Shown here: positions 10,266 through 63,837 of the stretch, in pieces
How positions within the stretch are numbered: position 1 is the stretch's first letter
Layout of the letters: every line of letters starts with the position of its first letter
DNA from: a virus
Virus record (IMG/VR): IMGVR_UViG_3300042507_006854
Coordinates: 1-64,000 of that record
Reading direction: 5' to 3' (one strand)
Length of the DNA stretch: 64,000 nucleotides
Program-made: the position numbers and the translations under genes
The notes under the pieces: model-generated
Database searches by the model: none
Told to the model about the DNA's origin: nothing
The model's input: the letters and a program-made list of their open reading frames with translations, nothing else

Positions 10266-10266
10266 T

Positions 10267-10962
10267 ATGAAAGTTTTACAAAAAGGAGATGTGAGTGAAG
10301 AAGTAAAACAATGGCAATTGTTTCTTCAAAGTGCTGGTTATAAAATTCCCTATGTTGATGGAGCTTTTGGACCGGCAACTGAACGAGAAACTGTAAAATT
10401 TCAAGTTAAAAATGGGTTAAAAGCGGATGGAGTTGTTGGACCAAAAACTTGGAAATTTGTAACGAATATTTCTAAGAATACCCCGCTTTCTCAAAAATGG
10501 CCAAAACAAAATTACACAAGTATGGTTAATTTTTATGGACCAGTTGGTGAAAATCAAACTAAATTAGATGTTCCATATAAATTAAAATTAGCATGGGCGC
10601 CATCGACAACCTTAACACGTATTACTTGCCATGAGAAAGTTGCACAATCTCTTTATAAAATATTTGAAAGTACTTTAAAAACATATGGAGAGAAAGAAAT
10701 TTCTCGTTTAAAATTAGATATGTTTGGTGGATGTTTAAATGTTCGTCGTATGCGCGGGGGGTCCGCATGGTCAATACACAGCTGGGGAGCAGCAATAGAT
10801 CTTGATCCAGACAATAATCAATTAAAATGGCCAAAACCAAAAGCAATATTAAGTCGTGCTGAATATAATGAATTTTGGAAAATAGTTGAATCCGAGGGAT
10901 GGACGAGTTTAGGTAAGGAACGCAATTTTGATTGGATGCATTTTCAAGCTGCTTATTTATAA
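10267..10962 (+). CDS. endolysin, PG-binding domain plus M15 peptidase
   Basis: 231 residues from ATG 10267, which follows AGGAATA. A longer frame starting at 10189 overlaps the holin gene and lacks homology there, so it is rejected. Residues 3-65 are a PG_binding_1 domain (QKGDVSEEVKQWQLFLQSAG ... DGAFGPATERETVKFQ ... DGVVGPKTW). Residues ~100-231 are an M15-family zinc peptidase (VanY/Ply500-like) with the ligand set His171 and Asp178 in SIHSWGAAIDLD and His225 in DWMHF. It should cleave peptidoglycan stem peptides. N-terminal binding modules of this kind are common in endolysins of phages of diderm hosts. Confidence 0.9.
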   Translation: MKVLQKGDVSEEVKQWQLFLQSAGYKIPYVDGAFGPATERETVKFQVKNGLKADGVVGPKTWKFVTNISKNTPLSQKWPKQNYTSMVNFYGPVGENQTKLDVPYKLKLAWAPSTTLTRITCHEKVAQSLYKIFESTLKTYGEKEISRLKLDMFGGCLNVRRMRGGSAWSIHSWGAAIDLDPDNNQLKWPKPKAILSRAEYNEFWKIVESEGWTSLGKERNFDWMHFQAAYL

Positions 10963-43887: not shown

Positions 43888-44404
43888 AGAACAGATATTA
43901 GCAAATTTAAATCAATACAAAAATCCACAATTTGGAAGTTATATCGTATTTATTTTTTTAAATTTATTAACAAATTTTAAAGATAAATTTTACACTGGTT
44001 CTGAAAATATTATTCCCGCGATTTATGTAGAAATGGTTACACTAAGTAATTCTCCAAATTGCTCGTGCCGTTCTAAAGTAATAAAATATATAAATAATAA
44101 TTTAGATCAAATTTTTGAATTTATGGTAAACTGGATTAATCGAACAGAAGAATCTATTTTAAGTGAATTTTTTGATTTCTTATTTAACGAAATAGATTCC
44201 CAAAATATAAAAGCCAGATATTTTCAACATTTGGATTTAAAAACAAAAAGAATGGCTGGTAATGTCCTTGTTATCGAAGACGATCCAGTAGAATATAGAA
44301 AAGTAATAGATTACTTGCAAAAAGAAAATTTTGAATATAAAGATTTTAATTTATTTAGTTTAACAGATGGTGATAAAAAATATTTAAAGTTTTATTTCTA
44401 TTAG
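43880..44404 (+). CDS. hypothetical protein beside glycosyltransferases
   Basis: 174 residues from ATG 43880; a TTG at 43874 would add two residues and is less likely. Helical, with a central SPNCSCRSKV and a C-terminal strand-rich part with NVLVIEDDPVEYRKVIDYLQ. The last part has a superficial resemblance to response-regulator strands but lacks a receiver layout. Its stop overlaps by 4 bases the stop of the convergent minus-strand glycosyltransferase. Function unknown. Confidence 0.5.
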   Translation: MNKEQILANLNQYKNPQFGSYIVFIFLNLLTNFKDKFYTGSENIIPAIYVEMVTLSNSPNCSCRSKVIKYINNNLDQIFEFMVNWINRTEESILSEFFDFLFNEIDSQNIKARYFQHLDLKTKRMAGNVLVIEDDPVEYRKVIDYLQKENFEYKDFNLFSLTDGDKKYLKFYFY

Positions 44405-45192
44405 AATTTTCTTTGATTTATTAAAGCATTTTTACTTCTCATCGCGTGGACCAAAGTAGGTTTAATATTATATTTTTCACCCGTCATATAAGATTCGTAA
44501 CTCCATGTGGTATGTAATGGAATTATATTTTTAAAATTACCCGTCCAATCCGAAGCCCAATAATTAAAGTAATTTTCATGAAAATGAAAATTTACATTTT
44601 TACTCATATAATTTGTAATATAAGCCATCGGAATCTCTTCTGTAATTCGATAGTTATTTGACACAAAATAATTATAACAATTTATTCCTAGCTCACAAGC
44701 TTGTTTAATAAAACTTTTTTTACATATCCAATATCCAGCATTTACGTTTCTAATTTCTTTATTAAAAACACCAAGGTTTCTATACATTTGAGTTAAAGTT
44801 TGAACTGGAACTCCCCACCAATCTGGTCGTATAGTTTTTTCTGAATTAATTGGGCTTTCCAAAAAACAGTGCCAAGGATTACCTTCCCTCATTAAATCTA
44901 ATGGAGATATCTCAGGTTGTGCCACAAAATAACTATCGCTGTCTATAAAAACAAAATACTCGTAATCCATTTCTAATAATTTTATTAAATAAAAAAACTT
45001 AAACATATAATTTGCTAAACTGATTTCAATTTTTGAGTCTAGGGAACGGTTAATACAATTTTTTAAATCTTTATCTGAGAATACAATAAAATCATCTTGT
45101 ATTCCAACAGCTCTTGAAGAGTTTATCAAAGATTGAGCCATATATGCATAATCTCCCCAAGCAATTGTCCAATAACAAATTTTTTTATTCAT
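44401..45192 (-). CDS. glycosyltransferase, GT-A fold (GT8-like)
   Basis: 263 residues. YFVFIDSDSYFV holds a DxD motif at Asp84/Asp86, the metal and nucleotide-sugar site of GT-A enzymes. NVNAGYWICKKSF (about 149-161) matches the 'N-x-G-x-(w/f)' acceptor-side motif of GT8-like families. Several Trp/His motifs occur at the C-terminus (WASDWTGNF, LVHAMRSKN). It starts by ATGA overlap with the upstream minus-strand glycosyltransferase, so they form an operon. It could modify virion surface proteins or host surface glycans; the donor sugar is unknown. The opposite strand to the surrounding tail genes marks it as an inserted cassette. Confidence 0.72.
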   Translation of the reverse strand: MNKKICYWTIAWGDYAYMAQSLINSSRAVGIQDDFIVFSDKDLKNCINRSLDSKIEISLANYMFKFFYLIKLLEMDYEYFVFIDSDSYFVAQPEISPLDLMREGNPWHCFLESPINSEKTIRPDWWGVPVQTLTQMYRNLGVFNKEIRNVNAGYWICKKSFIKQACELGINCYNYFVSNNYRITEEIPMAYITNYMSKNVNFHFHENYFNYWASDWTGNFKNIIPLHTTWSYESYMTGEKYNIKPTLVHAMRSKNALINQRKF

Positions 45193-46208
45193 ATACTTTT
45201 AAATATTTCTTCCCATAATTTAATATGTTCGTCTGAGTTACACCACAATTTGATTGATAAATTTCTTGCTTCTACTCCTATTTGTATACGATCCTTATAT
45301 GAAAGATCCATAAATTGGGCATATTCGCAAGCCTCTTCATATGTTTTCCAAATAAATCCAGTTTTATTATGATTTATTTGATTAACGAAATTAACTTTAT
45401 TAGGAGCGATAACTGGAAGTCCTGTCAACATTGCTTCAATTGTGGCTCGACATTGTGTCTCAGTAAATGTATAATGACTATTATAAACATAACAATCTAA
45501 AGATTTTAGAAAATCAATAACGTTTTCTTTTGTGGCGGGTAATAATGTCCATTTATCTTTATTAAAATTAAACCAAGAAAAATGTTCAACTATTTTTTTG
45601 TTTAAACCCATAACACGATACTTAGGATTTTTAATACCAAGACCTTCATAAAATAATGGAAAATTATCTGAAAATTTTAAAAAATCGGGCCGACTATGTT
45701 TACCAATTGTAAAAACATCTTTCTCCTCTCTTTGTATATAACGATAATTTTCCAAATGAAAATAATTAGGAATTATATATTCTTTCGATTTTTGTAATCT
45801 TATATCTTGATAGTGCTGATTACTAGTATAAATAGTCGCATCAATGAAATTATTATCAAAAGCCCATTTTTCTTCATTCGTTCTCCACATCATATCATTT
45901 GACCAAATAAATTTAAGACCCATTGATTTTATTTTTTTTATACGCCAATTTTCAGAAAATATTCTAAAATTACAAAATGAAATTCCAAAACCTTCTGTTT
46001 TTTCTGGAAGGTCTTCCCATCTTAAAATTTCTACATTATTTTTCTTTAAAAAAGAAATATTTTCAACTTCTTCTAATCTAAAATTGTCATTTGGAATACA
46101 AAATAATTTATATTTTTTATTCGTATTGAAACATTGTATTAATTCTTTTAATCTTGTATCTGCGCCCCCTAAATTAGATGGCCAAAGAAAAAAATACAAA
46201 TTTATCAT
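45189..46208 (-). CDS. glycosyltransferase, GT-B fold (GT4-like)
   Basis: 339 residues from ATG 46208. A longer frame to 46298 would run through the divergent promoter region and adds an unrelated N-terminus, so it is rejected. MINLYFFLWPSNLGGADTRLKE looks like the Gly-rich first loop of GT-B enzymes. TETQCRATIEAMLTGLPVIAP with NKTGFIWKTYEEA is the classic C-terminal donor-binding signature (E-x(7)-E/A-M-x-x-G-x-P-V). Operon with the GT-A enzyme that follows. A possible TGTAA element for this strand lies upstream (46230s) but is weak. Confidence 0.78.
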   Translation of the reverse strand: MINLYFFLWPSNLGGADTRLKELIQCFNTNKKYKLFCIPNDNFRLEEVENISFLKKNNVEILRWEDLPEKTEGFGISFCNFRIFSENWRIKKIKSMGLKFIWSNDMMWRTNEEKWAFDNNFIDATIYTSNQHYQDIRLQKSKEYIIPNYFHLENYRYIQREEKDVFTIGKHSRPDFLKFSDNFPLFYEGLGIKNPKYRVMGLNKKIVEHFSWFNFNKDKWTLLPATKENVIDFLKSLDCYVYNSHYTFTETQCRATIEAMLTGLPVIAPNKVNFVNQINHNKTGFIWKTYEEACEYAQFMDLSYKDRIQIGVEARNLSIKLWCNSDEHIKLWEEIFKSI

Positions 46209-46250
46209 ATTTATATTATATTCTATAAATCTTGTTTTACATAATTTTTT

Positions 46251-46269
46251 AGTGTAATTAGTTAAATAT
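46251..46269 (+). promoter_or_regulatory. AGTGTAA element in divergent gap
   Basis: AGTGTAATTAGTTAAATAT ends at ATG 46270. The 61-base gap separates the minus-strand glycosyltransferases from the + strand adhesin genes, so a promoter is required here. Confidence 0.55.
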
Positions 46270-46638
46270 ATGGCATGCGAACTTTCAGTTATTAGCAATC
46301 AAAATTTTTTATTTGGATCTACCAATTTAAATTGTCCAGATGTTCCTATTCCAATTTGCCCACCAGGAAACTATTCTATTGTCCCAGTTATTCAAAATGG
46401 TTGTATAATATCTTATAATTGTGTTTTAATTAGTAGCGCTATAGATAATTTTATCCCAGAATCTGTTGATGTTAGTGGTCGTGCCGGAACTTTATTTTTC
46501 CCAGACGCCGGATTAATAAACACTACTTGCCCAATAATATCTGAATTAAGCTCTTTTATACCAAATATATTAGAATCTAGTGGCCGAGCGGGAACCTTGT
46601 TTTTCCCAGACTTTGAAACTAAATTATGTGTAAATTAA
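46270..46638 (+). CDS. small Cys-containing virion protein with internal repeat
   Basis: 122 residues. The sequence SGRAGTLFFPD occurs twice (around residues 74-84 and 106-116) within a wider ~35-residue duplication (NFIPESVDVSGRAGTLFFPD; SFIPNILESSGRAGTLFFPD). N-terminal half has NCPDVPIPICPPGNYSIVPV and NGCIISYNC. Probably a short fibre-associated or tip protein. Family not recognised. Confidence 0.55.
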   Translation: MACELSVISNQNFLFGSTNLNCPDVPIPICPPGNYSIVPVIQNGCIISYNCVLISSAIDNFIPESVDVSGRAGTLFFPDAGLINTTCPIISELSSFIPNILESSGRAGTLFFPDFETKLCVN

Positions 46639-46641
46639 GCT

Positions 46642-48555
46642 ATGAGTTGCGTTTTATCACACCCTATTAGTGGTCAAATTTTAGTTTTAGAATCTGGATT
46701 TCCGGCTTTATTATATACTTCTTTAAATAATTTAAATGTTGATTTAAATACAGGTTCAAGAATTACCTTAAAAAGTTATTCTAATTTATATGTATTAGAA
46801 AGTACTGATAGCGCAAATAATGTATATCCAACGGAAATCGGTTTTGTTCAAAATTCTGGACTCCCAAATGGATTAGGTCTTTATAATTATAATACAATTA
46901 CGGGAAAAATAAATGGCACCGGTATTTGGAATGTTGCTACAAGATATATATATCCAAATCGGCCGGAGCCCGTATCAAAAATTTTTACAATCGTATCTAA
47001 AGTCTCAGGGGGTAGTATTAATTCGTATCCTTTACCAAATTTTGAGACGGTATTTACAGGAAATGGCCAACCAGTTTTTCCAATTAATGGGCCTAACGGT
47101 TTAGAAATTCCAACTGAAAATAATGGAAATATAACTTTTACCCCAATTACTCAAGAAATTATAGACTCTCCTTTTGTAGAATCAAGTGGGCCAACTTTAG
47201 AAAATTCTAATATCCCTGAAGTTATTGAAAATCCTGAAACCCCCTGTCCAGAAGCCGAGGAATGCCCACCAGATCAGGGTTTTGGTGGTGGAGGATGGGG
47301 CGGTGTTGAAGGCGGTGAAGGAGGCGGCGGCGGTGGCGGTGGTGGCGGCGGACTTGGTTTTGGAGGCGCGGGTGGAGACCCTATTAACTATATTGCAGTT
47401 AGAGGTTTCAATAATCTTACTACCACGCCCGAAGGAGTTATTACTGGATTTAATAGTTTCTGGGCTGAAACAAGATATGTAGACACAAGAACAAGAACAG
47501 AAAATTATTTCTTAGGTAGGATTGGAAATAGATATGTGCGAGTAGATACTCAAACTGACCGTGGTTTTGATAACTCTCAATTAGGTATTATTAAAGGTAT
47601 TAAATTTTCTCAAGGTATTCTAACTCCTAGTGGAAATGGTTATTTACCTTATGGTATTGAAACAGGTTCTACAACTTATTTTATATTAACTGGATTATTG
47701 CCAAATAATAGTATATCAACTTCTTTAATTCGTAAAGACTTAAATGGTCCTTTTATTGATGTACTTCAAAATGGGACTGGCATTTCATTGGGAAATTTAT
47801 TTCCAACGGGTGTTCCTAGACTTGAAAATGCTTCAAATTTTGAAATACAAATTAATATCGGAATTGAAAATATTACAGCTTTATCTTTGAACTGGCAAGT
47901 TATTGTTGATAATTGGAGATCTATTAATGACGCGGTATTGGGTGGTTCATATTCCTCAATTCCAGGAGATTTACTTTCTTATGATCAGGTTGGGGGTAGT
48001 TACATAGAGCATTTAAATTATACATATGAATTAATTCCATTTACGAGTAATGTTTTTTCACAAACAGGAGTTTCTGATTTCACTGGTATTCAAATAAATG
48101 AACCATGGACTACATGGGGAGAAACTCTAAAATGGACAGAATTAACACCAAAAACTCGTCATTTTTATGGTTTATCTTGGTTGATGAGTAGAGCATGGTT
48201 AAATTCTAGTAACGGGACAGTGAATGAAAATCTTCCAATTAGTGGGGCAAATTTTAATCGGCAGGATACTGGTTTTGAAGATTCTCCGATTATCATGACA
48301 AATGATATAACTTTAGACACGACTTGCCCTCCCGTTTTAAATAGATGTTTAGGGTGTGACCCTACGCGCATTAATTTTACTGGTAGTTTTGAGAATTTTA
48401 ACAATTCGCCGCTAGGAAATGTAAGCGGTGCACAGATGATTGAAGCTTTTGCTAATTGTGTTGGTTTAGTACCTTTTTGGAGAGTAGAACCAGTATCAAC
48501 AACCTCTTCACAATCGTTAACAGATCTCTTAGATTTATTAGAAGAATTAAATTAA
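46642..48555 (+). CDS. virion protein with glycine-rich hinge
   Basis: 637 residues. Residues ~1-190 form a beta domain. A Pro/Glu/Cys-rich stretch (ENPETPCPEAEECPPDQG) then leads into a Gly-rich hinge of ~35 residues (GGGGWGG, then runs of nine or more Gly). The C-terminal ~390 residues are beta-rich with Trp and Thr, ending with two Cys pairs (CPPVLNRCLGCDP). A GTGTAA at 46628 lies 14 bases before the ATG and inside the end of the preceding gene. The hinge probably allows flexible presentation of the C-terminal domain. No enzymatic motif seen. Confidence 0.55.
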   Translation: MSCVLSHPISGQILVLESGFPALLYTSLNNLNVDLNTGSRITLKSYSNLYVLESTDSANNVYPTEIGFVQNSGLPNGLGLYNYNTITGKINGTGIWNVATRYIYPNRPEPVSKIFTIVSKVSGGSINSYPLPNFETVFTGNGQPVFPINGPNGLEIPTENNGNITFTPITQEIIDSPFVESSGPTLENSNIPEVIENPETPCPEAEECPPDQGFGGGGWGGVEGGEGGGGGGGGGGGLGFGGAGGDPINYIAVRGFNNLTTTPEGVITGFNSFWAETRYVDTRTRTENYFLGRIGNRYVRVDTQTDRGFDNSQLGIIKGIKFSQGILTPSGNGYLPYGIETGSTTYFILTGLLPNNSISTSLIRKDLNGPFIDVLQNGTGISLGNLFPTGVPRLENASNFEIQINIGIENITALSLNWQVIVDNWRSINDAVLGGSYSSIPGDLLSYDQVGGSYIEHLNYTYELIPFTSNVFSQTGVSDFTGIQINEPWTTWGETLKWTELTPKTRHFYGLSWLMSRAWLNSSNGTVNENLPISGANFNRQDTGFEDSPIIMTNDITLDTTCPPVLNRCLGCDPTRINFTGSFENFNNSPLGNVSGAQMIEAFANCVGLVPFWRVEPVSTTSSQSLTDLLDLLEELN

Positions 48556-49658: not shown

Positions 49659-50963
49659 ATGAGTTTTAAATTATATTATAAACCCTGGCCAAATGTAGTT
49701 CCTATTATTAATAATGTGGCTTACGATACAACAGAGCTTCGTTCTCCTGTAAAATTAGGAGAATTTAGTTCTGTCGATTCGGCAAAATATTGGGTAACTA
49801 GACATTTAAGATACGGAACTTTGGTTAAATCAACAGAATCTTTAGCTCAAGATACTTTTTTATCTGGTTGGGGTACAAATTCTGGGCCTCAACCTCAGCC
49901 TTTATTAAATTCAACACCTTTTATGTTGACAGGTATAAAAAATATTGCTCTTGGTTCTTTTCATGGTGTTGCTGTTTTATATTCAAACATCGTAACCGGT
50001 TGGGGATCAAATTCAAATGGTCAAATTAATCCTTCTATTTTTAGTGAACTTAAAGGAGAAAGAATAAAAAAAATAGAGGCTGGTGATTCTCACACTTTAT
50101 TTTTATCTATAGATGGAAAAATTACAGGTGTTGGGAGTAACAATGTAACCGCTGGGAATAATCTAACAAATGTTAAAGATATCTCAGTCGGTGCTTATCA
50201 TAGTTTGGCATTATTTGAAAATGGAAATATTACTGGTTGGGGTGGGCCCTCAGCTAGTGAAGCAAAAAATGTTCCCCAATTTTTACAAACAGGAGAGTTA
50301 GGAATATCAATTAGTGCTGGAACAACTCATAGTTTAGCTATTTTAAAAAATGAATTAGTTCCTTTTGAAGATTTTCCAGATTTGAAAGTTTCTACAACAA
50401 GATTAACTGGCTGGGGAGATTACCAAAATTTAAACAATTGGGCTGCAAATCTTTTAACCGGTGAATTTAAAATCGACACTTTTGATTGGGCTGGTTTAAG
50501 AAAAATTAGCGCTGGAACTTGGCATAGTATAGCAGTAATAGAAAAATGGGTTCAAAGAAGCCCTGGTTCAAATTTTTATGATAAAGTTTCTATGGTTACT
50601 GGCTGGGGTAGAAATGACCCCCCAACAAACGGAAACCAAGGTCCTGATGTCAATTTAGCAAATGGTGGGGATAATCTAATGTTTGTAGATAAGATTTTTG
50701 CCGGACCTTATCATAATATTGCTCAATTTTATAATGGGCAATTAACTGGATGGGGGCAAACAAGCGCGTTTAATAACATTAATATGAATGAATATAAAAC
50801 TTCTAATATTAAAGTTAATTATAACTTTAATCTAGTGATTAAAGAAAAAACAAGCACTTTATCTTGGGACAATTCAGAGATATTAAATAACTGGCCTTAT
50901 AATGATTTATATGTATATGAAACAGAACCTGGTGAAGGTGGCGTTGATGCGGTTCCTTGTTAA
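49659..50963 (+). CDS. RCC1-like seven-bladed propeller virion protein
   Basis: 434 residues. After ~65 N-terminal residues there are six clear RCC1-type signatures of the form 'I-x-A-G-x-x-H-(s/t)-x-A-(l/v)': IALGSFHGVAVL, IEAGDSHTLFL, ISVGAYHSLAL, ISAGTTHSLAI, ISAGTWHSIAV and IFAGPYHNIAQ, at roughly residues 93, 136, 172, 215, 280 and 344. Each is followed by a TGWGxN strand. The extra N-terminal GWGTNSG and C-terminal strand probably close a seventh blade. The family is a general protein-binding propeller (RCC1, BLIP-II). It has no known phage role; receptor binding or fibre scaffolding is inference. Convergent with the glycosyltransferase at 50960. Confidence 0.85.
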   Translation: MSFKLYYKPWPNVVPIINNVAYDTTELRSPVKLGEFSSVDSAKYWVTRHLRYGTLVKSTESLAQDTFLSGWGTNSGPQPQPLLNSTPFMLTGIKNIALGSFHGVAVLYSNIVTGWGSNSNGQINPSIFSELKGERIKKIEAGDSHTLFLSIDGKITGVGSNNVTAGNNLTNVKDISVGAYHSLALFENGNITGWGGPSASEAKNVPQFLQTGELGISISAGTTHSLAILKNELVPFEDFPDLKVSTTRLTGWGDYQNLNNWAANLLTGEFKIDTFDWAGLRKISAGTWHSIAVIEKWVQRSPGSNFYDKVSMVTGWGRNDPPTNGNQGPDVNLANGGDNLMFVDKIFAGPYHNIAQFYNGQLTGWGQTSAFNNINMNEYKTSNIKVNYNFNLVIKEKTSTLSWDNSEILNNWPYNDLYVYETEPGEGGVDAVPC

Positions 50964-51748
50964 TATTTAATATTATTATTTTTTAATATATTTTCAATTA
51001 AATTTAGATTAACTTGTTTGTCTTTATTTGCCCAAAGATGGACAATACCATTCTTTATTAATTCTGAGGAAATGTCTTCATATTTTGGTGTTTTTATGAT
51101 TAAATTATCTTTATAATTTATTTTTAAATTATTAAAAATTAAGTTTGTAAATAAAATTTGTTCAAAAATTACTGGTAACATCCAACACTTATCTTTTTGA
51201 GGTAATTTTTCATTAATATCTTCTAATAATACTTTATTATTTAAGGCGTAATTTACCAATTCTATTGCTATTTGGTTAATTAATTCAAAATTATTTCCGC
51301 CCACAATCGCACAATTTAATGAAATGGGCTTTGCTATATATGTATTTAAATTTTTATATATATCTACTAAAATTTTAGTATTAAAAAGAAGCCATTCTTC
51401 TCCATGTAAACACAGAAATTCTTTTTTTATTAAATCATCTTTCAATTGTCGTAATAATAAAATATCAAAATCAATATGAATAAAAGGTTCTTTCATTTGG
51501 CTCATTGCTAATAATTTACCTAAACTCCATATTGATTTTGGTATATTTTCTGTAATTTGCTCTTCTAAACAAAAAATATTATTGTATTGAATATTTTCAA
51601 AATACAATCGAGATTTTTTGTCCACAAATAAAATTGTTTCATATCCATGTTTTTGAGCTAAAAAGTTTGAAACTGCTGCCATTTTTAAAATTTTTGAATG
51701 ATTTTTCTCTTTTAAGCTAAAATCAACATAACTAAAAATAACTTTCAT
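50960..51748 (-). CDS. glycosyltransferase-like protein, DxD (DUF6734-like)
   Basis: 262 residues. FIHIDFDILLLRQL carries Asp93-x-Asp95 after a beta strand, the GT-A nucleotide-sugar motif. LNCAIVGGNNFELIN near residue 148 fits the acceptor side. The N-terminus KVIFSYVDFSLKEKN and the ordering 'SLGKLLAM..EPFIHIDFDILL' resemble a family of predicted glycosyltransferases (DUF6734-type). Single-gene minus-strand island; its stop overlaps the preceding gene's stop by 4 bases, and a divergent promoter-like element for the + strand protease gene lies upstream. Confidence 0.62.
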   Translation of the reverse strand: MKVIFSYVDFSLKEKNHSKILKMAAVSNFLAQKHGYETILFVDKKSRLYFENIQYNNIFCLEEQITENIPKSIWSLGKLLAMSQMKEPFIHIDFDILLLRQLKDDLIKKEFLCLHGEEWLLFNTKILVDIYKNLNTYIAKPISLNCAIVGGNNFELINQIAIELVNYALNNKVLLEDINEKLPQKDKCWMLPVIFEQILFTNLIFNNLKINYKDNLIIKTPKYEDISSELIKNGIVHLWANKDKQVNLNLIENILKNNNIKY

Positions 51749-51837: not shown

Positions 51838-54800
51838 ATGAATTACGATAATCTACAAAAATACATAGAAAATCTTTATTTTAATACTCCAGAAACAATT
51901 CATGGGATCTCTTTAGGATATAAAATAAAAGATGGTGTTACAACAGATAAGCTATGTATAAGCTTTTTCGTTCCTAAAAAACTTGAAGCAAAAGACCTCG
52001 AAAATCAATACGTTATTCCAAAATCTATTGTTATTGACGGAACTGAATATTTAACAGACGTTGTTGAGACAAAAATGCCAATAGCAATTGGTTGTTTTAA
52101 TTGGCAAGCGTCTCCACTTCCTTCAGCAATAGTTCCTCACCGCTCTAGACAAAGGCCATTAAAAGGTGGCATTGTTATCTCAAATTATACAGATTTATAT
52201 AATCCTTTAAAAAATTCTATTGTAAAAGGGACTTTAGGGTTAATTTGTGTTGATAAAGATACGGATTCATTTGTTGGGTTAACCAATGCTCACGTAATTA
52301 TTAAAGACCCGTTTATTCCTTCAAATCAAGATGTAAAAGGTTTTTTAAGTAATATTTTGCCAGATAAAAAAATTGTTCAATATACCGAACCAAATATTAA
52401 TACCACAAATGATAATATAGGTAATATTAGAAAATTTTATCCTTTATCTAAAGATGCCTCGAATTATATCGATGCAGCTTTAATTTCTATTAAAGAATTT
52501 GTTGGTAATACATCAACACCTATTTTAAGTCAAACTGAATCCTGGAGACAGTTAGGTTTAAACTATAACAATCCGATGGAATTTGCTTCCACGCAAGAAA
52601 TTGATAGTTTATTAAATACGCCAAGAGAAATTTATTCAGCCGGAAGAACTACTGGACCAAAAGGATCTAACTGTCCTTTGCAAATAACAAATTTACTAAG
52701 TTCTTATAGTATAATATACGAAGAACAAGGAACTCGTGTTTCTGTTCCTTTTTCTAATTGTATTACATTTAAATATCAAGACAATTCTTTATGGTCAACA
52801 GCTCCTGGAGATAGCGGATCTGTTTTAATAGCAAATTTTAACGGCGCCTGGAAAATTATTGGTTTAGTTTTTGCTGGAGATGAGGGCGGAAGTTTCGGCG
52901 TTGCCTGTCGTATCGACACAGTCGCAAATAGATTAAATATTGAACCTTGGCTTAATGGGAATAAGAACTATATTCAAAATTATAAAACAGTATTAAAAAC
53001 TTTTGATGAGGGCGTATCCTTAATGAGTAATAATAATTCTAATTTATGGAATGTTACTCAAACAATTAGCGGAGATAAATATTGGTATGCTGGTTTAGTT
53101 GCAGACTCAAGTAGCTCATCTTCTGGACCTGCAACTTGGGATATTCAAATTCAAATGACTCAACCTAGTCAAAAGTTTTTTATAGATATCAGGGGTGGGA
53201 CGAATCCTAATTTTACTATTGACTGGGGTAATGGTTCTATTCAAACATATAATTCATTAGGTACAAAAGACTCAACGTATCCATTAACTGGCAATTATAT
53301 AGTCAAAATAAATGGTAGTTTTTCTGATAACGGAAATATTGCTATTAATAGTAATAGTTCACCAAATCTTGGAACACCAGTCTCCGCAGCAGTCAAATCA
53401 ACTTCTATAATGCCTTTTATTTCAGGTTTAAAATCTGTTAATGGGCTATTTTTCCAATCTACGAGTTTAACTTCTCTTCCAACTGGATTCTTTGATTTTA
53501 ATCCTCAAATTACTGATTTTTCTTCGGCTTTTTCGTTTTGTTCGTCTTTAAATTCTATACCATCCGGATTATTTAAAAATAATACGAATGCTATAAACTT
53601 TGGTAGTTCAGACACTTATGGTACTTTTAGAAGTACAGCTTTTACAAATGTTCCAAGTAATCTTTTTTATAATAATACGCTAGCTACTAGTTTTGTCGAT
53701 TGTTTTAATGACGTACCTTTAACAACAACTTCATATAGTAATTTATTGATAAACTTGGCATCAAATGCTGCTCAGCGTCCAAATAATGTAGTATTTGACG
53801 CTCGTAGCTCTCGTTATAATTGCAATGCTCAAGCGGCCAAACAGGTGTTGTTAGCGAAAAATTGGTCTGTTAATGATTTAGGGCTAGAAGGTACTTGTAC
53901 TTCTTCCTCGTCCTCGTCTTCTTCCTCGTCCTCGTCTTCTTCTAACAATCCTAATTTAAATACATCCTGTCTTCCATGTTGCCCAAGTTTTACTGGATCT
54001 TGGGCTGGAGGTATCAATGGACTAGGTATACTAAGAAATTGTACTTCGGAACTTTATGTGTGTCCGACTGGATGCTCAATAAAAAATCTTAATACTAATT
54101 TTACTACTACTGCTGGAGATCCAAATCTAATATTTATAAGCACTCTTGACGGGTCGGCGTATAAAAGAGCTTATATTCAGGGAATTGATAGCGGAGCTTC
54201 TTTCACGAATTATACTAATGTTCATAATACTCTTGTTTTATGGGATGGAGAACAAGATGGTACTACTTTCCAAGATGGCGACACAGTAAGATTTAGCGGT
54301 ACGCTTGGATCTCTTGATAATAGAATTATTAAAGGAATTGATTATAAAGTAGCCGTTATTCCCGAGAAATGTGCGCCGCCTTCTAATTATTTAAATAGTC
54401 AAGCTTTAGCAATTCAATGTGAATATAATCCTATTACGGACCCCTCTTGTTTTGATATATGTTCTGGCGGCTTAATTAATTATACAGTTGAAGCTCTTTA
54501 TTTACATACTTATGACCCAGGCAAATTCCCAGAATCGATATCAATATGTAGTGGAACAGAAGTAACCGGAACTAATAGTATTAGAATATTGACACCATAT
54601 TCTCCATCAAATTTTATACCACAAAATGCTCCAGATTTTTCAGGTATTGCTATTTTACCAAGCCTACAAGGATCACCAATAAATGTCGAGATTCAAACAA
54701 TTTTAAAACCAGGGGGAGCGCCTTTAATCGATATATCTAATGATAATATTAATTTTGGGCAAAATACAACTATTACAATTCCAGCAAATCAGTTAAGTGG

Positions 54801-55452
54801 ATTATTCGCTATTAGAATTACTGGGGCATTACCTCCTGACAATCCTAACCTTCCAGGTTTTAACGAGCCAGCAGAAATATTTTTACAGGCGAGTGTTCCT
54901 GGTAGTCCACTTTACAATCCTTCCTTAACTTTATTAACAATACATCCAGGAGAAAGTGGTACGGGAAATGGGGCTCCTTGTGGCGGACCAGGACACGTTT
55001 GTAATAGAGCTTTATTTGACATTATAATTGGAACAGGTCTTGATCCAGTAACTTCTGGGGTTGTCGGGGTTACTGTACTAAATGCTAATTTAAATAATAA
55101 TGGCGGCCCAACAGATCCAGGTCCTGGTCCGGCACCATATAATGGTCAATATGATAGATATAGCTCTGGAATTATTACAGAGCAAATGGCTCAACAAATT
55201 TTTGGCGCTTCATATAATGACGGTTTAGATAAATCTTATTTTGTAGAAATTAGAACTGGCGTGGGAAATACTAATCCTCACAATGGTATTACGAATGTAA
55301 GAATTAGAGATTGCTCTGGCGCTTTAGTTTATAATTGTTGTTTATCTATCGGTGGTGGTTCAACTGTCCCTCCTCCATTACCAACGCCTTCTACGACTTC
55401 ATCGGCAGCTTTTGACGAAATTCTATCCTCTTTAATAGATGATGTGATATAA
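51838..55452 (+). CDS. virion protein with trypsin-like protease domain
   Basis: 1204 residues. Residues ~1-375 are a chymotrypsin-fold serine protease with intact triad: His152 in LTNAHVI, Asp212 in NYIDAALI, Ser326 in APGDSGSVL. Residues ~440-500 contain FTIDWGNGSIQTYNS, a PKD-like DWGNG turn. Residues ~510-620 are BspA-like leucine-rich repeats (FQSTSLTSLPTGFF; FCSSLNSIPSGLFKN; FTNVPSNLFYNNT). A 14-serine linker follows (689-702). The remainder is Cys-rich and ends with a C-x-GG-x-GHVCNR domain shared with the gene at 39170. No signal peptide. Possible roles: digestion of host surface proteins, or maturation of other tail proteins. Confidence 0.8.
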   Translation: MNYDNLQKYIENLYFNTPETIHGISLGYKIKDGVTTDKLCISFFVPKKLEAKDLENQYVIPKSIVIDGTEYLTDVVETKMPIAIGCFNWQASPLPSAIVPHRSRQRPLKGGIVISNYTDLYNPLKNSIVKGTLGLICVDKDTDSFVGLTNAHVIIKDPFIPSNQDVKGFLSNILPDKKIVQYTEPNINTTNDNIGNIRKFYPLSKDASNYIDAALISIKEFVGNTSTPILSQTESWRQLGLNYNNPMEFASTQEIDSLLNTPREIYSAGRTTGPKGSNCPLQITNLLSSYSIIYEEQGTRVSVPFSNCITFKYQDNSLWSTAPGDSGSVLIANFNGAWKIIGLVFAGDEGGSFGVACRIDTVANRLNIEPWLNGNKNYIQNYKTVLKTFDEGVSLMSNNNSNLWNVTQTISGDKYWYAGLVADSSSSSSGPATWDIQIQMTQPSQKFFIDIRGGTNPNFTIDWGNGSIQTYNSLGTKDSTYPLTGNYIVKINGSFSDNGNIAINSNSSPNLGTPVSAAVKSTSIMPFISGLKSVNGLFFQSTSLTSLPTGFFDFNPQITDFSSAFSFCSSLNSIPSGLFKNNTNAINFGSSDTYGTFRSTAFTNVPSNLFYNNTLATSFVDCFNDVPLTTTSYSNLLINLASNAAQRPNNVVFDARSSRYNCNAQAAKQVLLAKNWSVNDLGLEGTCTSSSSSSSSSSSSSSNNPNLNTSCLPCCPSFTGSWAGGINGLGILRNCTSELYVCPTGCSIKNLNTNFTTTAGDPNLIFISTLDGSAYKRAYIQGIDSGASFTNYTNVHNTLVLWDGEQDGTTFQDGDTVRFSGTLGSLDNRIIKGIDYKVAVIPEKCAPPSNYLNSQALAIQCEYNPITDPSCFDICSGGLINYTVEALYLHTYDPGKFPESISICSGTEVTGTNSIRILTPYSPSNFIPQNAPDFSGIAILPSLQGSPINVEIQTILKPGGAPLIDISNDNINFGQNTTITIPANQLSGLFAIRITGALPPDNPNLPGFNEPAEIFLQASVPGSPLYNPSLTLLTIHPGESGTGNGAPCGGPGHVCNRALFDIIIGTGLDPVTSGVVGVTVLNANLNNNGGPTDPGPGPAPYNGQYDRYSSGIITEQMAQQIFGASYNDGLDKSYFVEIRTGVGNTNPHNGITNVRIRDCSGALVYNCCLSIGGGSTVPPPLPTPSTTSSAAFDEILSSLIDDVI
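53902..53943 (+). repeat. 14-serine linker with TCTTCCTCG-type repeats
   Basis: Fourteen consecutive Ser codons, using TCT, TCC and TCG, in an imperfect repeat of ~18 bases. Codon choice differs from the AGTTCTTCGTCA unit at 17352, so the two poly-Ser linkers arose independently or were reshaped. Confidence 0.9.
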
Positions 55453-55471: not shown

Positions 55472-58400
55472 ATGTCTAACTGTTCTAATTCTTATTCAGT
55501 AAAATTTGAATCCTTTAATGGTTTTAATAGGGCAGTTATATTAAAAGGTACTGGCTTATCAATCAATTATGATTTGGGTTGCGAATGTTTAACGCAAGAT
55601 AAAAATTGCAATATTTTAAATAATCTACCAAATAATATTGAAAAAATATTAGACACTAATTGCGTCAATACTTCTTTTACTGGTAATTTTAGATTTGATC
55701 AAAATGATCTTTATAAATATTTAGTAATTCCAGATTGTAATAACTCTAACCCTAATACTACATGGGATTTTTCGGTTTCTCCAATTTGTTGCAATAATCA
55801 ATATTCAGTTAATTTTTGGTCCTATACCGCGCCAAGTCGATTAGTGATATTAGCAGGTAGCGGACTATTAGTTAATTCAGGATTATTTTGTGATTGTATT
55901 AATAGTGATAAAAATTGTTCAATATTAAATTCTTTACCTTCTGATATTTATAAAGTTTTAGATACAAATTGTATTTTAACAAATCAAACAAATTTCACTC
56001 AAACGATTGATTTACCTTCAAATCTTCCAAATTTTGTTTTAGTTATTCCTGATTGTTTAAATCAAAATGCCAACGCAACTTGGAATTTAAATATAACTCC
56101 ATATTGCGCTCAAGGTGCTGTATGCGCTCCTTGTGAAGTTGCTTCTGGTATTTCCTGCTCTTTTGATTATACTTTTAGTATTTCTCCGCGTAACTCAAAT
56201 ATTGTTTTTGATACTTTTGAAAAAGTAACTTCTTATAAAGACGATCAATTAAATAAAGTAATTGTTGAAACTACAAATGGGTTTAGAGGTTATGAACGAG
56301 ATCTTGGATTCATTGCTGAGCAAGTTGATATTAATCCGTTCTTACCAAGTGGCGTTAAAGGCGTAACATATCCTAATGTCGGTGGAATAAATTTTGAATA
56401 CCCAAGTGATACATTCATAAGGGTAGAAGAAAAAAATCTTCGTCTTAAAGAACATGAATCATGGACAGAAGACTTTTCTTTATTTAATAAATATAGCTAC
56501 AATAATTTATCTCAAGAAGAAGCGGGGGCAGTAATTCCAACTAATGACAATATATCATTGTCTAAAGGTCCTTCAATTTATAATATTGAATATAAAGGTT
56601 ACAAATTTAATTCAAATACAAATGCAAAGTATAAACAAAAATTTGTTATCAAACAATTTCCTGAAAATAATATCGGTGTACCGATAGATTATTCTTTTAA
56701 CTCTGGATGGGCAAGTTATGATGTTACTTCGGGAATGAATTTTAAAAATGCCTTTTCGTATGGTGTTCAAGTCGTAGACAAGTTAACATTTACGGAAGGT
56801 TTTATTATTGAAGGTGAAACTAGAATTACTGGTCGTCAAGATATTATCAATTGGATACGAAGTGGCCTAAATCCAGTATTAAGAACTGGCATAATGAGCG
56901 CTTTTAGTTTCTTGTCTGCTTATTGTTTGGAAGGCCCAGACTGTCCAGAGCCTCCAGAGCAATGTCAAAAAGCTGGAGACGGAGGTGGTTTTGGCGGCGG
57001 ACCAATTTGTCCGATAGAATGTTGGACAGGTTCTAATATTACTGGAGCCGAATATTATAATTGGCTGACTGGCACTTTAAATAAATACCAAGACCAAAAA
57101 GCTTTTTTAAATAGTAATAATGTTTATGGAAAAATTATTACAGGTTCAATTAATGCACCATTTACCTCATTAACAGGGTCTCTTAGATATAATTCTTGGA
57201 TTTCTGGAGATAAATTTAGATTCACTATGTATCCATTTGATTATACTGGACTATATAGAGCTCTGCATCTTGGAAATGATCCTATTTATCCACCATACAA
57301 TGTAGAATTAGTCTACCCAAGAGATTGGACAAATATGTATAATTTTGTAGACAAATTAAACGAAAAATTAAGAGATGTTTCTGCGCCTATTTGGTACCCT
57401 TACCTGTGTTTATCAGGCACGCCTAGTGGTCATTACGTATCCGGTTCTTTGATGGAATTTATGATAAATACTGGTTCCTGTTGTCTACCAACTGGCGATC
57501 TCGATATTATGGATTTTCAAAATTTAATTGACTTTCGTTCTTTAAGAAGTTTACCAGGTTTACCACGAACAGGTCAAGCGATGAAAGATGAAGATTTATG
57601 TTTATCTGAAATAAAATCTGATGGATCTGGTCGTGCCCCATGGTATTTTAATTTAAAATTAGATTTATCTCCTAATGAAAGAAGGCCGTATAACATTTAT
57701 AGTGGCTATAGTTACTTAATTCCTACCTGTATTGAATTTCAAAGATGGGAAAATAATTCTTGGAAAACTGTAGATAAACATTGTAATTTATATAAAGATA
57801 TCACTGGACTAGATCGGACCTGTATTATTAAAGAAGTACCTGATTTAATCGAATCCAATGATGGTTATCTTAATCAGAATTACGCAAGCTCAATTACGGG
57901 CACGAAAACAGAGGAAGAATTACTTTTAGAAATTGAAGGTCAACCTTTCAGTGGTGTTTATAAAACACTTTTGAATTTCAAACAAAAAATCACAGTAAAT
58001 AGCAGGGGTAAATGTCAAGGTTGGGTTGATATTAAAGATATTGATTTTATATGGCCAGATAATTTTCCGACAGGCATTCTAACTAAAAATGGTCAATTAA
58101 GCGGTGTTGATAATAGATACTGGTGTAATCCAGAACAACAAGAAGAAAAAGGACCCCCCTGTGAATGTGAACCGTTGGGTCCCGAGCCGGATTGTGCTTT
58201 ACAAGGGTTTGACTGCATTGCGAAACAAGATAAAGACGAAGAATGCGGATGTCCATATTGGTATTGTGAATGCCCAACAGAAGAGGTTCCGCCTGTCGAA
58301 ATTTGTCAAATAAGAACTGGCTGGAATTTAACAGGTAGCTTTGGTTTAGAAGCAAAGAGTGCCAATTTTGATAAATATAGACTTGTATTTAGTAATTTTA

Positions 58401-59905
58401 GCGGTCAAAATATTGAGCATTATAAACCATTAAATGAATTTTATATTGGAAATATAAATTTATTTAGTATCACCGGAGGGATACCGTTACCACCTTTAAC
58501 AGGAACCGAAAAATGTCCTATTGGAGCTGATTATGTAATTGACGTTTTTGGTAATGTGCCTCTTAGAATTACTGGTGTGCACAATTATTCTATTAATGAG
58601 GGTATGAGCGGTGAATATACTAATTATTTTGAAGTAGTAAGACCAATTCTGCCCGAAGAAAGAAATGTTAAATTTAACAAGGTTAGTGGTATTATTACAA
58701 GTTTCTTCGCAACTGGTTTCTGGAGTAAAACGCTTAGACCTTCAGGCTGGGCTTGTAGAACATTTGATGATTATTTCTTTTATGACCCGAATTCAAAAGA
58801 AATTACTTTTGAGAAGACTTTATGCGCTTACGCATCTGGATTTACAGGGTTGAGTGGTAGTTTTATTGCTCTAAAACAATCTGTTGTTAATAGAGAACTA
58901 TTAGTTGGTGGTAGATTTAATACCCCTATTGCTTTTGTAACCTATACTGGAATAGGTACTTATACTGGATTTATTGATAATGTTACTTATAAAGAATATG
59001 ATGTAGTTGGTTATTATCCAATTACTGGACGCATAACAGGATTTACTAGAAGTGGATTTTTAGATGTTAGTAACACGGTAATAAGCCAGGCACCTGTTAG
59101 CGGTGATACTTATCCTTATTACCCAATTCCTACTGGTTTTATAAATGCTAGTGGTTATATAGAAGTTGATTTTTCTCAGATTAGGAATTTTGATTATTTT
59201 ACTATATATGGAAATAATTTTGTTTATCATTCTAATTCTTCTGAATATCCTTTCCCAAGCTACTTTAATAATATAGATACTTTATATCAAATTGTTAGTG
59301 GTATTGGGTCAGATCTTGGTATAGAGTCTTCGTTAGATGGAAATAAAATATTTATTAAAAGTTTAAGAACGGGAACCTTAGGTAATACTTCAATAACAAC
59401 AACTAATACAGGAGCTTTTAATATATTTGGTATGTCTGGTGGCCAAGACATCTTTCCAAGAATTTATAACTATTATTATGTAATTAATGACGGTTTTATA
59501 TCTGGCATTGAAATAACTCCAATGGTAACTGGAAATATTAATAGATTTATTTTAGCCACTGGATTTTACTATAGTAATTCTGGAACAGGTACTGTTACGG
59601 GTAACATAAGCACATTTACAGGCGTAAGATATTTTACTGGAGTATGGGATATTGCAACTGGAAATATATTTACGCCATTTAGAAGCTTTTTAAGCAATGG
59701 GTGGGTTTCCGGAGATAGTTTTATTAGAGAGAATACTTATAGTCCGAATTATTTACATTATATAAAATTGAGAGCCTTTTATTTAAATCAATTGTCCACA
59801 TTCTTATTCGAGGAATCTGATATTGCTGATTTAATTATTAAAGATGCTAACAATCCAGATATTTCCGGATCTGGGATTATTTTTAGATTAAGTGGAATTA
59901 AATAA
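55472..59905 (+). CDS. giant Cys-rich virion protein with N-terminal tandem domain
   Basis: 1477 residues. Residues 1-106 and 107-205 are a clear tandem duplication: YSVKFESF / YSVNFWSY, RAVILKGTGL / RLVILAGSGL, CECLTQDKNCNILNNLP / CDCINSDKNCSILNSLP, KILDTNC / KVLDTNC, LVIPDCNNSN / LVIPDCLNQN. Conserved Cys positions suggest disulfides. The middle (~210-900) is beta with Cys-rich patches (CPEPPEQCQK; PCECEPLGPEPDC...EECGCPYWYCECP). The C-terminal ~450 residues have Thr-Gly periodic strands (YTGIGTYTGFIDN; YYPITGRITGFTRSG). AGGTACAAGG precedes the ATG. Adhesin role inferred. Confidence 0.6.
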   Translation: MSNCSNSYSVKFESFNGFNRAVILKGTGLSINYDLGCECLTQDKNCNILNNLPNNIEKILDTNCVNTSFTGNFRFDQNDLYKYLVIPDCNNSNPNTTWDFSVSPICCNNQYSVNFWSYTAPSRLVILAGSGLLVNSGLFCDCINSDKNCSILNSLPSDIYKVLDTNCILTNQTNFTQTIDLPSNLPNFVLVIPDCLNQNANATWNLNITPYCAQGAVCAPCEVASGISCSFDYTFSISPRNSNIVFDTFEKVTSYKDDQLNKVIVETTNGFRGYERDLGFIAEQVDINPFLPSGVKGVTYPNVGGINFEYPSDTFIRVEEKNLRLKEHESWTEDFSLFNKYSYNNLSQEEAGAVIPTNDNISLSKGPSIYNIEYKGYKFNSNTNAKYKQKFVIKQFPENNIGVPIDYSFNSGWASYDVTSGMNFKNAFSYGVQVVDKLTFTEGFIIEGETRITGRQDIINWIRSGLNPVLRTGIMSAFSFLSAYCLEGPDCPEPPEQCQKAGDGGGFGGGPICPIECWTGSNITGAEYYNWLTGTLNKYQDQKAFLNSNNVYGKIITGSINAPFTSLTGSLRYNSWISGDKFRFTMYPFDYTGLYRALHLGNDPIYPPYNVELVYPRDWTNMYNFVDKLNEKLRDVSAPIWYPYLCLSGTPSGHYVSGSLMEFMINTGSCCLPTGDLDIMDFQNLIDFRSLRSLPGLPRTGQAMKDEDLCLSEIKSDGSGRAPWYFNLKLDLSPNERRPYNIYSGYSYLIPTCIEFQRWENNSWKTVDKHCNLYKDITGLDRTCIIKEVPDLIESNDGYLNQNYASSITGTKTEEELLLEIEGQPFSGVYKTLLNFKQKITVNSRGKCQGWVDIKDIDFIWPDNFPTGILTKNGQLSGVDNRYWCNPEQQEEKGPPCECEPLGPEPDCALQGFDCIAKQDKDEECGCPYWYCECPTEEVPPVEICQIRTGWNLTGSFGLEAKSANFDKYRLVFSNFSGQNIEHYKPLNEFYIGNINLFSITGGIPLPPLTGTEKCPIGADYVIDVFGNVPLRITGVHNYSINEGMSGEYTNYFEVVRPILPEERNVKFNKVSGIITSFFATGFWSKTLRPSGWACRTFDDYFFYDPNSKEITFEKTLCAYASGFTGLSGSFIALKQSVVNRELLVGGRFNTPIAFVTYTGIGTYTGFIDNVTYKEYDVVGYYPITGRITGFTRSGFLDVSNTVISQAPVSGDTYPYYPIPTGFINASGYIEVDFSQIRNFDYFTIYGNNFVYHSNSSEYPFPSYFNNIDTLYQIVSGIGSDLGIESSLDGNKIFIKSLRTGTLGNTSITTTNTGAFNIFGMSGGQDIFPRIYNYYYVINDGFISGIEITPMVTGNINRFILATGFYYSNSGTGTVTGNISTFTGVRYFTGVWDIATGNIFTPFRSFLSNGWVSGDSFIRENTYSPNYLHYIKLRAFYLNQLSTFLFEESDIADLIIKDANNPDISGSGIIFRLSGIK

Positions 59906-61674: not shown

Positions 61675-61870
61675 CGAACAGGCCACAATTTAAGCATTCC
61701 GTCATATCTAATATTTTAATACGTTTTTTATTACAAAAATTGTATGTGCTAGTTTTTTTAGAACATCTGCAACCATGTGTTTGTTGGGATGAAAATTTAC
61801 AATTTTTAAATTTATACGAAGCAATTATAATATTTTCTTTTTGGTTATGAGAAAATTGAAGATTAGACAT
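61664..61870 (-). CDS. small Cys-rich protein, metal-binding candidate
   Basis: 68 residues with six Cys (KNCKF, HGCRCSKK, YNFCNK, ECLNCGLF), the last pair as CLNC. The spacing could form a zinc ribbon. Starts at ATG overlapping the preceding stop as TAATG, so it is translated with the gene at 61870-62622. Unknown function; phage genes of this type are often nucleic-acid binding or regulatory. Confidence 0.55.
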   Translation of the reverse strand: MSNLQFSHNQKENIIIASYKFKNCKFSSQQTHGCRCSKKTSTYNFCNKKRIKILDMTECLNCGLFENK

Positions 61871-62622
61871 TATTTTTTATTTTTTGACTTTATTCCGCTT
61901 ATTATTGTAAACATGCTTAAAGGAGAAATATCTTTAAGATCTTTCCAATTTTCAGAACCTTCCATATTTTTTTGTACAGCTCTTTCTTTAATTTGTTCGA
62001 AAGAAATGTTATATTCTTGCATAGTTTTTTCAAGAAGAGCTAATGGTTGAGTGACCAATGTATTTGGTTCTACATCTGAATCAATATGAGTTGTTTTACC
62101 CATTTCGTCATTACCAACAATATTGATTTTAAGAAAACTTCTGACACAACGAATAAAAGCACGATTTTCGGCAATCGCCATTAAAAAGTTTTTTGCAAAA
62201 TCTTTTGTATTGTCAAGGTGGGCATCAGCTAAGGCTGAAAATGAAACCATATTCATACTAGTTTCATAATTAGGAATCCAATCAATAGTGCATTTAACAG
62301 CAACATAATCTGGCTGAGCTTGAATTACTTCATAAGAAACATTTTTATATCCACGAATTTGGGCAAGTTCTTTAATACCCGCCAAAAGAATAAGCAATTG
62401 GTTATCAGCTAAGGATGTTACGTCAATTTCTTTAAGGTTAATATCTTTTTGATTTTTAAAAGCATCACGATTGGGAACAAGATATTCTTTATTAATCATT
62501 GCTCTCCAATTTATGGTATTGTCTGGATGAAAAATATAGTCTACGCACTCTAAAAGACCATTAACATCTCTTTTAAATTTATTTACAGTATCTTTATAAC
62601 GATAAACGATTTTATCTGACAT
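61870..62622 (-). CDS. possible single-strand annealing recombination protein
   Basis: 250 residues. The segment YVAVKCTIDWIPN followed by SFSALADAHLDNT and a long helix KNFLMAIAENRAFIRCVRSF resembles the layout of Rad52/Sak- and RecT-type annealing proteins ('strand-strand-A-x-A-x-x-R-A-x-x-R-a-x-r'). The C-terminal ~75 residues hold a helical domain (LALLEKTMQEYNISFEQIKE). It belongs to the minus-strand, non-virion block that starts here, where DNA metabolism genes would be expected. No diagnostic motif, so this is a tentative call. Confidence 0.4.
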   Translation of the reverse strand: MSDKIVYRYKDTVNKFKRDVNGLLECVDYIFHPDNTINWRAMINKEYLVPNRDAFKNQKDINLKEIDVTSLADNQLLILLAGIKELAQIRGYKNVSYEVIQAQPDYVAVKCTIDWIPNYETSMNMVSFSALADAHLDNTKDFAKNFLMAIAENRAFIRCVRSFLKINIVGNDEMGKTTHIDSDVEPNTLVTQPLALLEKTMQEYNISFEQIKERAVQKNMEGSENWKDLKDISPLSMFTIISGIKSKNKK

Positions 62623-62658
62623 ATTCTGATTATGGCATTATTTGATCAAAGTGTCAAC

Positions 62659-63837
62659 TTATTTACCATATATTAGAAAATAATCTAGATCTTGTTTTAA
62701 TAATTCTTTGTTGTTAATTAATTTAATTTCTTGTTCTAACGTTTTCCCATTAAAATTTATCGGCTTATTCTCTTCTGCTGCTGCACGGCTTGCATAAAAA
62801 TGATTATTAGCCATCAGTATTTTATTGGTCCTATATATAAAATTATCATTTAAAAATTCACAATCTTTATCTATATCAATCTCTTCAATTAAATTTGGTA
62901 ACTCAATCATTTGATATTTACGTTCAGAAAAAAGATGCTCATTGTTTTTTGTTTTCTTAAATACAATAGCGCTTCGAATTAATAATTTATTTAAATATTC
63001 AATAAATCTAACATCAATTCCTTCTGTTACATCATAAATAATCATGCTCAGATTTTTCCTATAAACTAACAGTGGGTCTAAGTTTATAGGGCTATCCGTA
63101 ACAATGCAACAGGGTCGAGTTGCTAAATTATGAATAATAGGATCTAATACATTAATTTTTTTATAATCTAATCTAATATTGACCATTTCATTTTGATTAA
63201 AATTGGGAGGGATTACTTGGTCTGGATAACATTCTAAAATTGGATGTATAAATTTATCCCCAATAAATTTTGTAGTAAAACTTGTAGAACTTTTTTCAAA
63301 AAGTAATTTTTCACAGGCTTTTACTACATCTTCAATTTTAATTTCATTAATTCTTTTAGGATTTTCGTTCGGATTAAAACTTGGCTTCCAATTTTGGGGG
63401 GTTAAACAAATTTGCTTAGAATTTTTCCAAAATGGTCCCGCAATTTCTGGAGAAGATACGCTATAAAGGGCAACTAATGGAGTTCCGAAGGCGCTAGCCA
63501 TATGTACTGCAAAACTATCATTGCCAATATGTAACATTGAATTTTCAATAATATAAGCAGATTGATTAAGATTCGTTTGCCCTTGGTAATTAATAGCGTT
63601 TTTAAGAGGAGCATCATCTTTAGATCCAATTTGTATTATTTGAATATTTTCTTTTTCTAAAGATGGCCGAAGATGATTAATCACTTCTTGAAAATAATCA
63701 TAACATTTTCCTGGCATTCCACTACTATTTTGTATAGTAATGTATTTCTTAAATGGAAGAGGAAAATATTTTTTTATAATAAAAGGTTTTTTTATTTTAC
63801 TTCCCGTTGATAATGCGTATGTTTCTAATAAGTGCAT
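62659..63837 (-). CDS. GT9-like glycosyltransferase, C-terminal domain
   Basis: 392 residues. Residues 104-138 (HIGNDSFAVHMASAFGTPLV then ALYSVSSPEIAGPFW) are the donor-site signature of GT9 heptosyltransferase-like enzymes ('D-S/G-x-x-H-x-A-x-A-x-G-x-P-x-v-a-l-(f/y)'). The N-terminal Rossmann domain typical of GT9 is missing, since the match to the second domain begins about residue 30. The C-terminal ~200 residues are another alpha/beta region of unknown kind. The upstream gene, in another frame one base away, might supply the first domain. Role: sugar transfer to LPS, virion proteins or DNA bases; not resolvable. Confidence 0.65.
   Translation of the reverse strand: MHLLETYALSTGSKIKKPFIIKKYFPLPFKKYITIQNSSGMPGKCYDYFQEVINHLRPSLEKENIQIIQIGSKDDAPLKNAINYQGQTNLNQSAYIIENSMLHIGNDSFAVHMASAFGTPLVALYSVSSPEIAGPFWKNSKQICLTPQNWKPSFNPNENPKRINEIKIEDVVKACEKLLFEKSSTSFTTKFIGDKFIHPILECYPDQVIPPNFNQNEMVNIRLDYKKINVLDPIIHNLATRPCCIVTDSPINLDPLLVYRKNLSMIIYDVTEGIDVRFIEYLNKLLIRSAIVFKKTKNNEHLFSERKYQMIELPNLIEEIDIDKDCEFLNDNFIYRTNKILMANNHFYASRAAAEENKPINFNGKTLEQEIKLINNKELLKQDLDYFLIYGK

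Follow-up and report, generated by a model that had tools for sequence, protein, structure and literature searches.

Most of the enzymes known to help phages enter their hosts hydrolyse glycans or peptidoglycan. Among solved structures, the closest in fold to the phage protease discussed here is NAL1 of plants, an intracellular protein that forms a hexameric assembly. In the open-access literature, no title or abstract found with the terms searched describes a phage family of the NAL1 type. In the one review consulted on this point (PMC6116005), a term search finds none of the words "protease", "proteolytic" and "proteinase". A survey of Alphaproteobacteria phages (PMC10783043) mentions, for one of its clusters, a serine protease that is trypsin-like. 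The ICTV profile, in the passages on it, mentions only a prediction for the protease of Aeropyrum coil-shaped virus (PMC7416610), and excerpts of the literature naming Virus NIOZ-UU157 do not discuss its protein A0A7S9XDX3.

The locus studied here lies in the window, the whole stretch of 64,000 nucleotides that was analysed, which is part of a 146,949-bp IMG/VR virus record. It comprises one open reading frame (ORF) in which a NAL1-type protease domain is followed by several further parts. These parts, together with two neighbouring genes, are as follows:

49659..50963, + strand: RCC1-repeat protein (PF13540/PF25390)
51838..55452, + strand: protease-adhesin ORF, 1204 aa, with ATG start
51838..52152, + strand: NAL1-type N-terminal domain, residues ~1-105 (NAL1 fold match from residue 1)
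52153..52956, + strand: chymotrypsin-fold protease core, residues ~106-373 (VIA alignments to alpha-lytic-type proteases, 106-373)
52291..52293, + strand: codon of His152 (TNAHV), His in 61/61 distinct relatives
52471..52473, + strand: codon of Asp212 (NYIDAA), Asp in 59/61, Glu in L051 and L095
52813..52815, + strand: codon of Ser326 (PGDSGS), Ser in 61/61 distinct relatives
53080..53094, + strand: YWYAG, residues 415-419, the window's version of the YWQxG-like motif that closes the domain in this family
53107..53124, + strand: first poly-Ser linker, residues 424-429
53134..53901, + strand: PKD-like and BspA-like module (match to the 2030-aa ORF of locus L014)
53902..53943, + strand: second poly-Ser linker, residues 689-702
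53944..55404, + strand: Cys-rich C-terminal region, read from the sequence, with no Pfam family
55405..55449, + strand: short acidic C-terminal tail AAFDEILSSLIDDVI, identified by eye and putatively helical
55472..59905, + strand: Cys-rich ORF of 1477 aa, 19 nt downstream of the protease-adhesin ORF

The PKD-like, BspA-like, poly-Ser and Cys-rich modules that an earlier note had named in this protein are visible by eye, and the PKD/BspA part is backed by a related phage, L014, whose 2030-aa ORF carries the same module with 37% identity over 317 aligned columns (E 6e-41). Pfam, however, confirms none of these modules in the window protein. At the N-terminus no signal peptide is apparent to a reading of the sequence made without a predictor, so that export with the virion would be the simplest exit from the cell. 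The last 20 residues of the ORFs at 46642-48555 and 51838-55452 are alike, both having TTSS followed by a short acidic tail, and the protease protein of L014 ends in an acidic tail that looks similar to that of the window protein. Such a shared ending could possibly be an anchoring peptide; the likeness of the acidic tails is not significant by BLASTP. Scans of the gene for DNA repeats and for promoters and terminators returned chance-level matches or poly-Ser codons only.

Relatives were collected from IMG/VR, where a single protein as a query yielded 1 locus, a two-sequence query 2, set A2 5 and set A3 90 confirmed loci. The analysis set holds the best 80 of the 90, a selection that favours closer relatives; it includes L014 and L017 as well as L015 and L016, which are re-fetches of the contigs of L001 and L004 (the latter two are used here). 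Addition of L018 (a 16-kb contig from the A2 search), the window and L002 gave 83 proteins, 61 of them distinct, and L002 was excluded from the 60-locus counts and from the 60-sequence alignment A6. Among 50,697 phage records, a tblastn search with the window domain found none at E 1e-3 and one weak hit at E 1, in the unannotated 484-kb phage LR756508, whose relative passes the threshold of Trypsin_2 (28.6 bits against a cut-off of 27.6). The same records gave only chance-level Klebsiella phage matches with L001 and no match with L086. The searches of annotated phage and virus records turned up only the relatives in LR756508 and Aeropyrum coil-shaped virus, both distant. A first scan of genome contigs found 0 relatives among 280 candidates, and a second found three, namely the cellular MAG proteins L099 and L100, and L098, whose 3.7-kb contig is assigned to a Bifidobacterium MAG but is probably a misplaced phage fragment. 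At positions 2-1939 of L098 the protease is fused to a HELGHALGIG segment; reading it as a metalloprotease was not counted, since no Pfam family was found at 1e-3. In 251 genomes of one phylum, PF25608 (NAL1_N) had a match in 4, above the cut-off in 2, and the family is rare in that phylum. The NAL1-type domain is a widespread family of metagenomic phages, and described phages lack it wholly or almost wholly. The protease had been called unusual in the earlier note, which is true for described phages but not for uncultivated ones, where it is frequent (90 loci).

The structure of the domain was modelled by AlphaFold2 on alignment A6 (pLDDT 88.8, pTM 0.91), a model from a two-sequence alignment having been discarded at pLDDT 37. 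Its best match in the PDB is rice NAL1 (NARROW LEAF 1; Foldseek E 1.3e-16), and the top 34 hits are all NAL1 chains. By VIA-align, whose Z gauges shared fold and not function, NAL1 is aligned with Z 30.0 and rmsd 3.2 over 324 residues in the model range 1-377, and alpha-lytic-type proteases come next with Z ~18 over residues 106-373. The model has the full-length NAL1 fold, with an N-terminal domain and a chymotrypsin barrel. Comparison of the A6 profile with PDB sequences also finds NAL1 (E 5.4e-8), in an alignment that includes the His and Ser segments and does not reach Asp. Pfam NAL1_N matches the window protein weakly (23.3 bits, below the cut-off of 27; E 5.6e-5), PHROG 20754, named "protease", matches residues 20-368 at profile positions 24-315 of 324 (E 2.7e-22), and Trypsin_2 (PF13365) has no match in the window's record. 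The structure prediction called for in the earlier note did find a chymotrypsin fold, and not the missing protease fold named there as a refutation. The description "trypsin-like" holds in the sense of an intact protease of the trypsin fold; with the NAL1-type domain ahead of the barrel, the protein is better called NAL1-like than simply a trypsin, and Trypsin_2 does not match it.

The complete triad His152/Asp212/Ser326 is present as claimed and near-invariant in the alignment of 61 distinct proteins, whose median pairwise identity is 34% and minimum 23%, and degenerate triads did not appear among these homologues. Invariant columns number 14, five of which (107, 111, 131, 132, 134) fall within the patterns used in the IMG/VR search. 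As these patterns span residues ~105-112 and 131-139 and cover neither the triad nor GDSGS, and relatives were fetched mainly with them, the conservation of the triad is not built in. The window domain is probably an intact, catalytically competent NAL1-type serine protease, with activity predicted from these features. In regard to its limits, the domain reaches ~residue 419 (53094) and does not end at residue 381 (52980), as given earlier. Gly419 of the YWQxG-like motif is conserved in 59/61 proteins, the two gaps being L036 (truncated) and L002, and in 46 of the 47 stand-alone proteins the ORF stops 0-20 residues past this domain-end Gly (49 in L050).

When proteins longer than 520 aa are taken as fusions, 13 of the 60 loci encode a protease extended by modules that vary and are mostly adhesin-like. 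The remaining 47 have a stand-alone protease, whose gene as a rule adjoins a further ORF that is often very large. A Ser/Thr/Pro/Asn-rich low-complexity run starts 4-42 residues past the domain-end Gly in 11 of the 13 fusions; L064 and L095 have no low-complexity linker past the domain by the pattern used. A Pfam scan that took in ten fused proteins recognised BNR/Sortilin (L014), Gly-rich (L027), FGE-sulfatase-like (L064) and DUF285/BspA (L079) modules beyond the protease, and no module downstream of it in the remaining six. On a tree of 59 rows, from which the truncated L036 and L054 were omitted, the fused or separate state needs 10 changes, and well-supported branches force at least 8 of these; the branches leading to L002 and L064 are long, and their joining on the tree may be false. 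The fusion to adhesin-like modules, also proposed earlier, is supported by these data.

The surroundings of the protease gene were described with a simple greedy ORF picker and not a gene caller. An upstream gene was available in 58 of the 60 loci (L002 excluded), on the same strand in 56 and at a distance of at most 30 nt in 54. Upstream ORFs of at least 500 aa were found in 31/54 cases against 62/499 background ORFs (Fisher p 5e-13), and ORFs with low-complexity linkers in 49/212 within two genes against 12/424 farther off (p 2e-15), p-values which overstate independence because the loci are related by descent. In 40/60 loci such a linker is present in the protease protein or in a same-strand ORF within two genes, and L018, L085-L088, L093 and L094 have no low-complexity adhesin signature within two genes. 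PHROGs matches among the neighbours include tail sheath, portal, head-tail adaptor and DNA polymerase. PHROG 15511 was rejected as a conserved partner, its matches falling on PT-rich, low-complexity stretches (profile positions ~190-414). In the Pfam scan of 57 of 76 neighbouring proteins, with 19 near-duplicates or extras omitted, Laminin_G_3 (lectin-like) was found in 4, Fib_succ_major in 3, Peptidase_S8 in 2 and M35 in 1, with collagen, DUF285 and Gly-rich among the single cases. The protease of L064 lies between two subtilases (Peptidase_S8), and position -1 in L096 is occupied by an M35 endopeptidase. Within L064 (3087-15684), a subtilase, the NAL1-type protease with an FGE-like domain and a second subtilase with a carbohydrate-binding domain stand in a row. 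Tandem protease paralogues occur in L029, L038 and L056; in the last (1-10539), five ORFs of the protease family lie within ~10 kb, which suggests tandem duplication.

In the window itself, TerL is at 164-2068, there is an upstream ORF that with 3367 aa has the size of a tape measure, and the capsid-region protein at 13327-14451 is 92% identical in L014, where the protease gene is a few genes upstream of this protein. The gene is thus placed within a structural region, marked here by TerL and the capsid-region protein and in other lineages by sheath, portal and adaptor. With this position, and with relatives near sheath, portal, connector and capsid-region genes, it is plausible that the window protein is a tail adhesin. 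The protease protein of L014 (987 aa, its domain 44% identical to the window's) has a different genomic place, directly after the 2030-aa ORF, and other C-terminal modules. In L001 and L004, a stand-alone protease is followed by a poly-Ser ORF and an RCC1 ORF. These are the 2 of 6 other records with relatives of the window's RCC1 protein (44-45% identity), located two genes from the protease, and the terminase of L004 is 54% identical to that of the window. No homology was found between the C-terminal part of the window protein and either the poly-Ser ORF of L004 or the C-terminal part of L014. Taken together, the comparisons with L014, L001 and L004 indicate that the head genes, the protease and the adhesin modules are in part exchanged separately from one another. 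Minus-strand genes are inserted in the adhesin region of the window at 44401-46298, 50960-51748 and 61870-63837, with one match each to glycosyltransferase group 1, DUF6734 and glycosyltransferase family 9; two genes beside them are unassigned. Three ORFs at 4020-8201 have weak BppL_N matches, all below the cut-off, and could possibly be further baseplate or fibre proteins.

The best reading of these observations, to which we would give an even chance, is that the protease is carried on the virion, tethered by an adhesin, and cuts proteins of the host surface. It builds on the fold, the conserved triad, the domain boundary, the repeated joining to variable extensions and the tight linkage to large ORFs, from which we infer activity, a virion location and an exterior substrate for the window protein. 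According to this proposal, the ORF would encode a virion-attached, enzyme-bearing adhesin, in which flexible Ser-rich linkers would join a catalytically competent N-terminal NAL1-type serine protease to PKD/BspA-like and Cys-rich binding modules. Such modules would hold the protease at the host surface, where, on contact, it would cut surface proteins (S-layer, outer-membrane or matrix protein), and the cleavage could clear the path to the receptor, as tailspike depolymerases clear polysaccharide. A wider version is tentative and, in our estimate, somewhat less probable than its opposite: in several tailed-phage lineages a virion NAL1-type protease, sometimes beside a subtilase or M35, would be carried on exchangeable adhesin modules and degrade host surface proteins at entry, with the YWQxG segment as the break point of module swaps.

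The main rival to host-surface cutting is the maturation of adhesins or tail proteins, in which the protease would cut its own polypeptide or a neighbouring giant adhesin in the course of assembly, as a kind of prohead protease dedicated to fibres; both functions had been offered in the earlier note. Stand-alone forms within 30 nt of the upstream ORF in most loci and the repeated fusion and fission on the tree would suit such an enzyme, and peptidase domains that process large bacterial surface proteins from inside them are described in the excerpt of the source used (PMC3482391). However, the neighbouring ORFs are very diverse (in an alignment of 57 of them, mean column identity is 6% and not one column is invariant), two loci have proteases of exterior type from other families in this position, and long extensions past the protease are kept in the fused forms. 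We consider maturation rather unlikely, though it ranks next after host-surface cutting.

It is also conceivable, but improbable, that the protease takes part in host takeover inside the cell and lies beside adhesin genes only fortuitously. The BNR, DUF285/BspA and Gly-rich extensions, the enrichment of large low-complexity ORFs beside the protease and the relatives near portal, sheath, connector and capsid-region genes all argue against this, and what speaks for it is the lack of a signal peptide by eye, the intracellular nature of the plant relatives of the fold, and the LR756508 copy, which is found among genes that look non-structural by reading. The last two points also count against host-surface cutting, as do the stand-alone members (47/60), which could act inside the cell, the loci of the L018 group with no adhesin signature nearby, and the missing linkers of L064 and L095. 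Finally, receptor-binding proteins usually keep the N-terminal domain constant and vary the C-terminal modules behind it, a plan that would fit a structural N-terminal domain in which the protease fold is retained mainly for docking. If the domain were no more than a scaffold, catalytic residues should have been lost here and there among the lineages, yet His and Ser are kept in every one of the 61 proteins and Asp in all but two at 34% median identity, which makes docking highly improbable.

Compared with known systems, the phage protein shares with plant NAL1 (PDB 7y77, 8pmi, 8has and others) the fold over the whole length and alignable NxHV and GDSGS segments. It differs by an identity of only 14-19%, by the YWQxG-like segment at the C-terminus, which the alignment (1-377) does not reach, and, in some members of the phage family, by the adhesin extensions. 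PHROG 20754 is matched by the window domain, L001 and LR756508, and offers a family name only, its listing attaching no adhesin coupling or virion role. ORF 25-326 of Aeropyrum coil-shaped virus (HE681887), a putative serine protease found with L043 (E 4e-4, residues 20-166) and having a weak NAL1_N match, differs in being a stand-alone protein of 326 aa from an archaeal ssDNA virus. The best structure match in BFVD, A0A7S9XDX3 of Virus NIOZ-UU157 (E 2.5e-34, TM 0.87 / 0.82, 29% identity), is an unannotated, uncharacterised protein. With a widespread phage family in which an intact protease is coupled to adhesin modules that change, proteins of the host surface would join the targets of phage enzymes. 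In its proposed working, an enzyme combined with binding modules on the virion, the window protein resembles the depolymerases of tailspikes and tail fibres, with no sequence relation claimed; these enzymes cut glycans, and the present family suggests that some phages may cut host proteins as others cut sugars.
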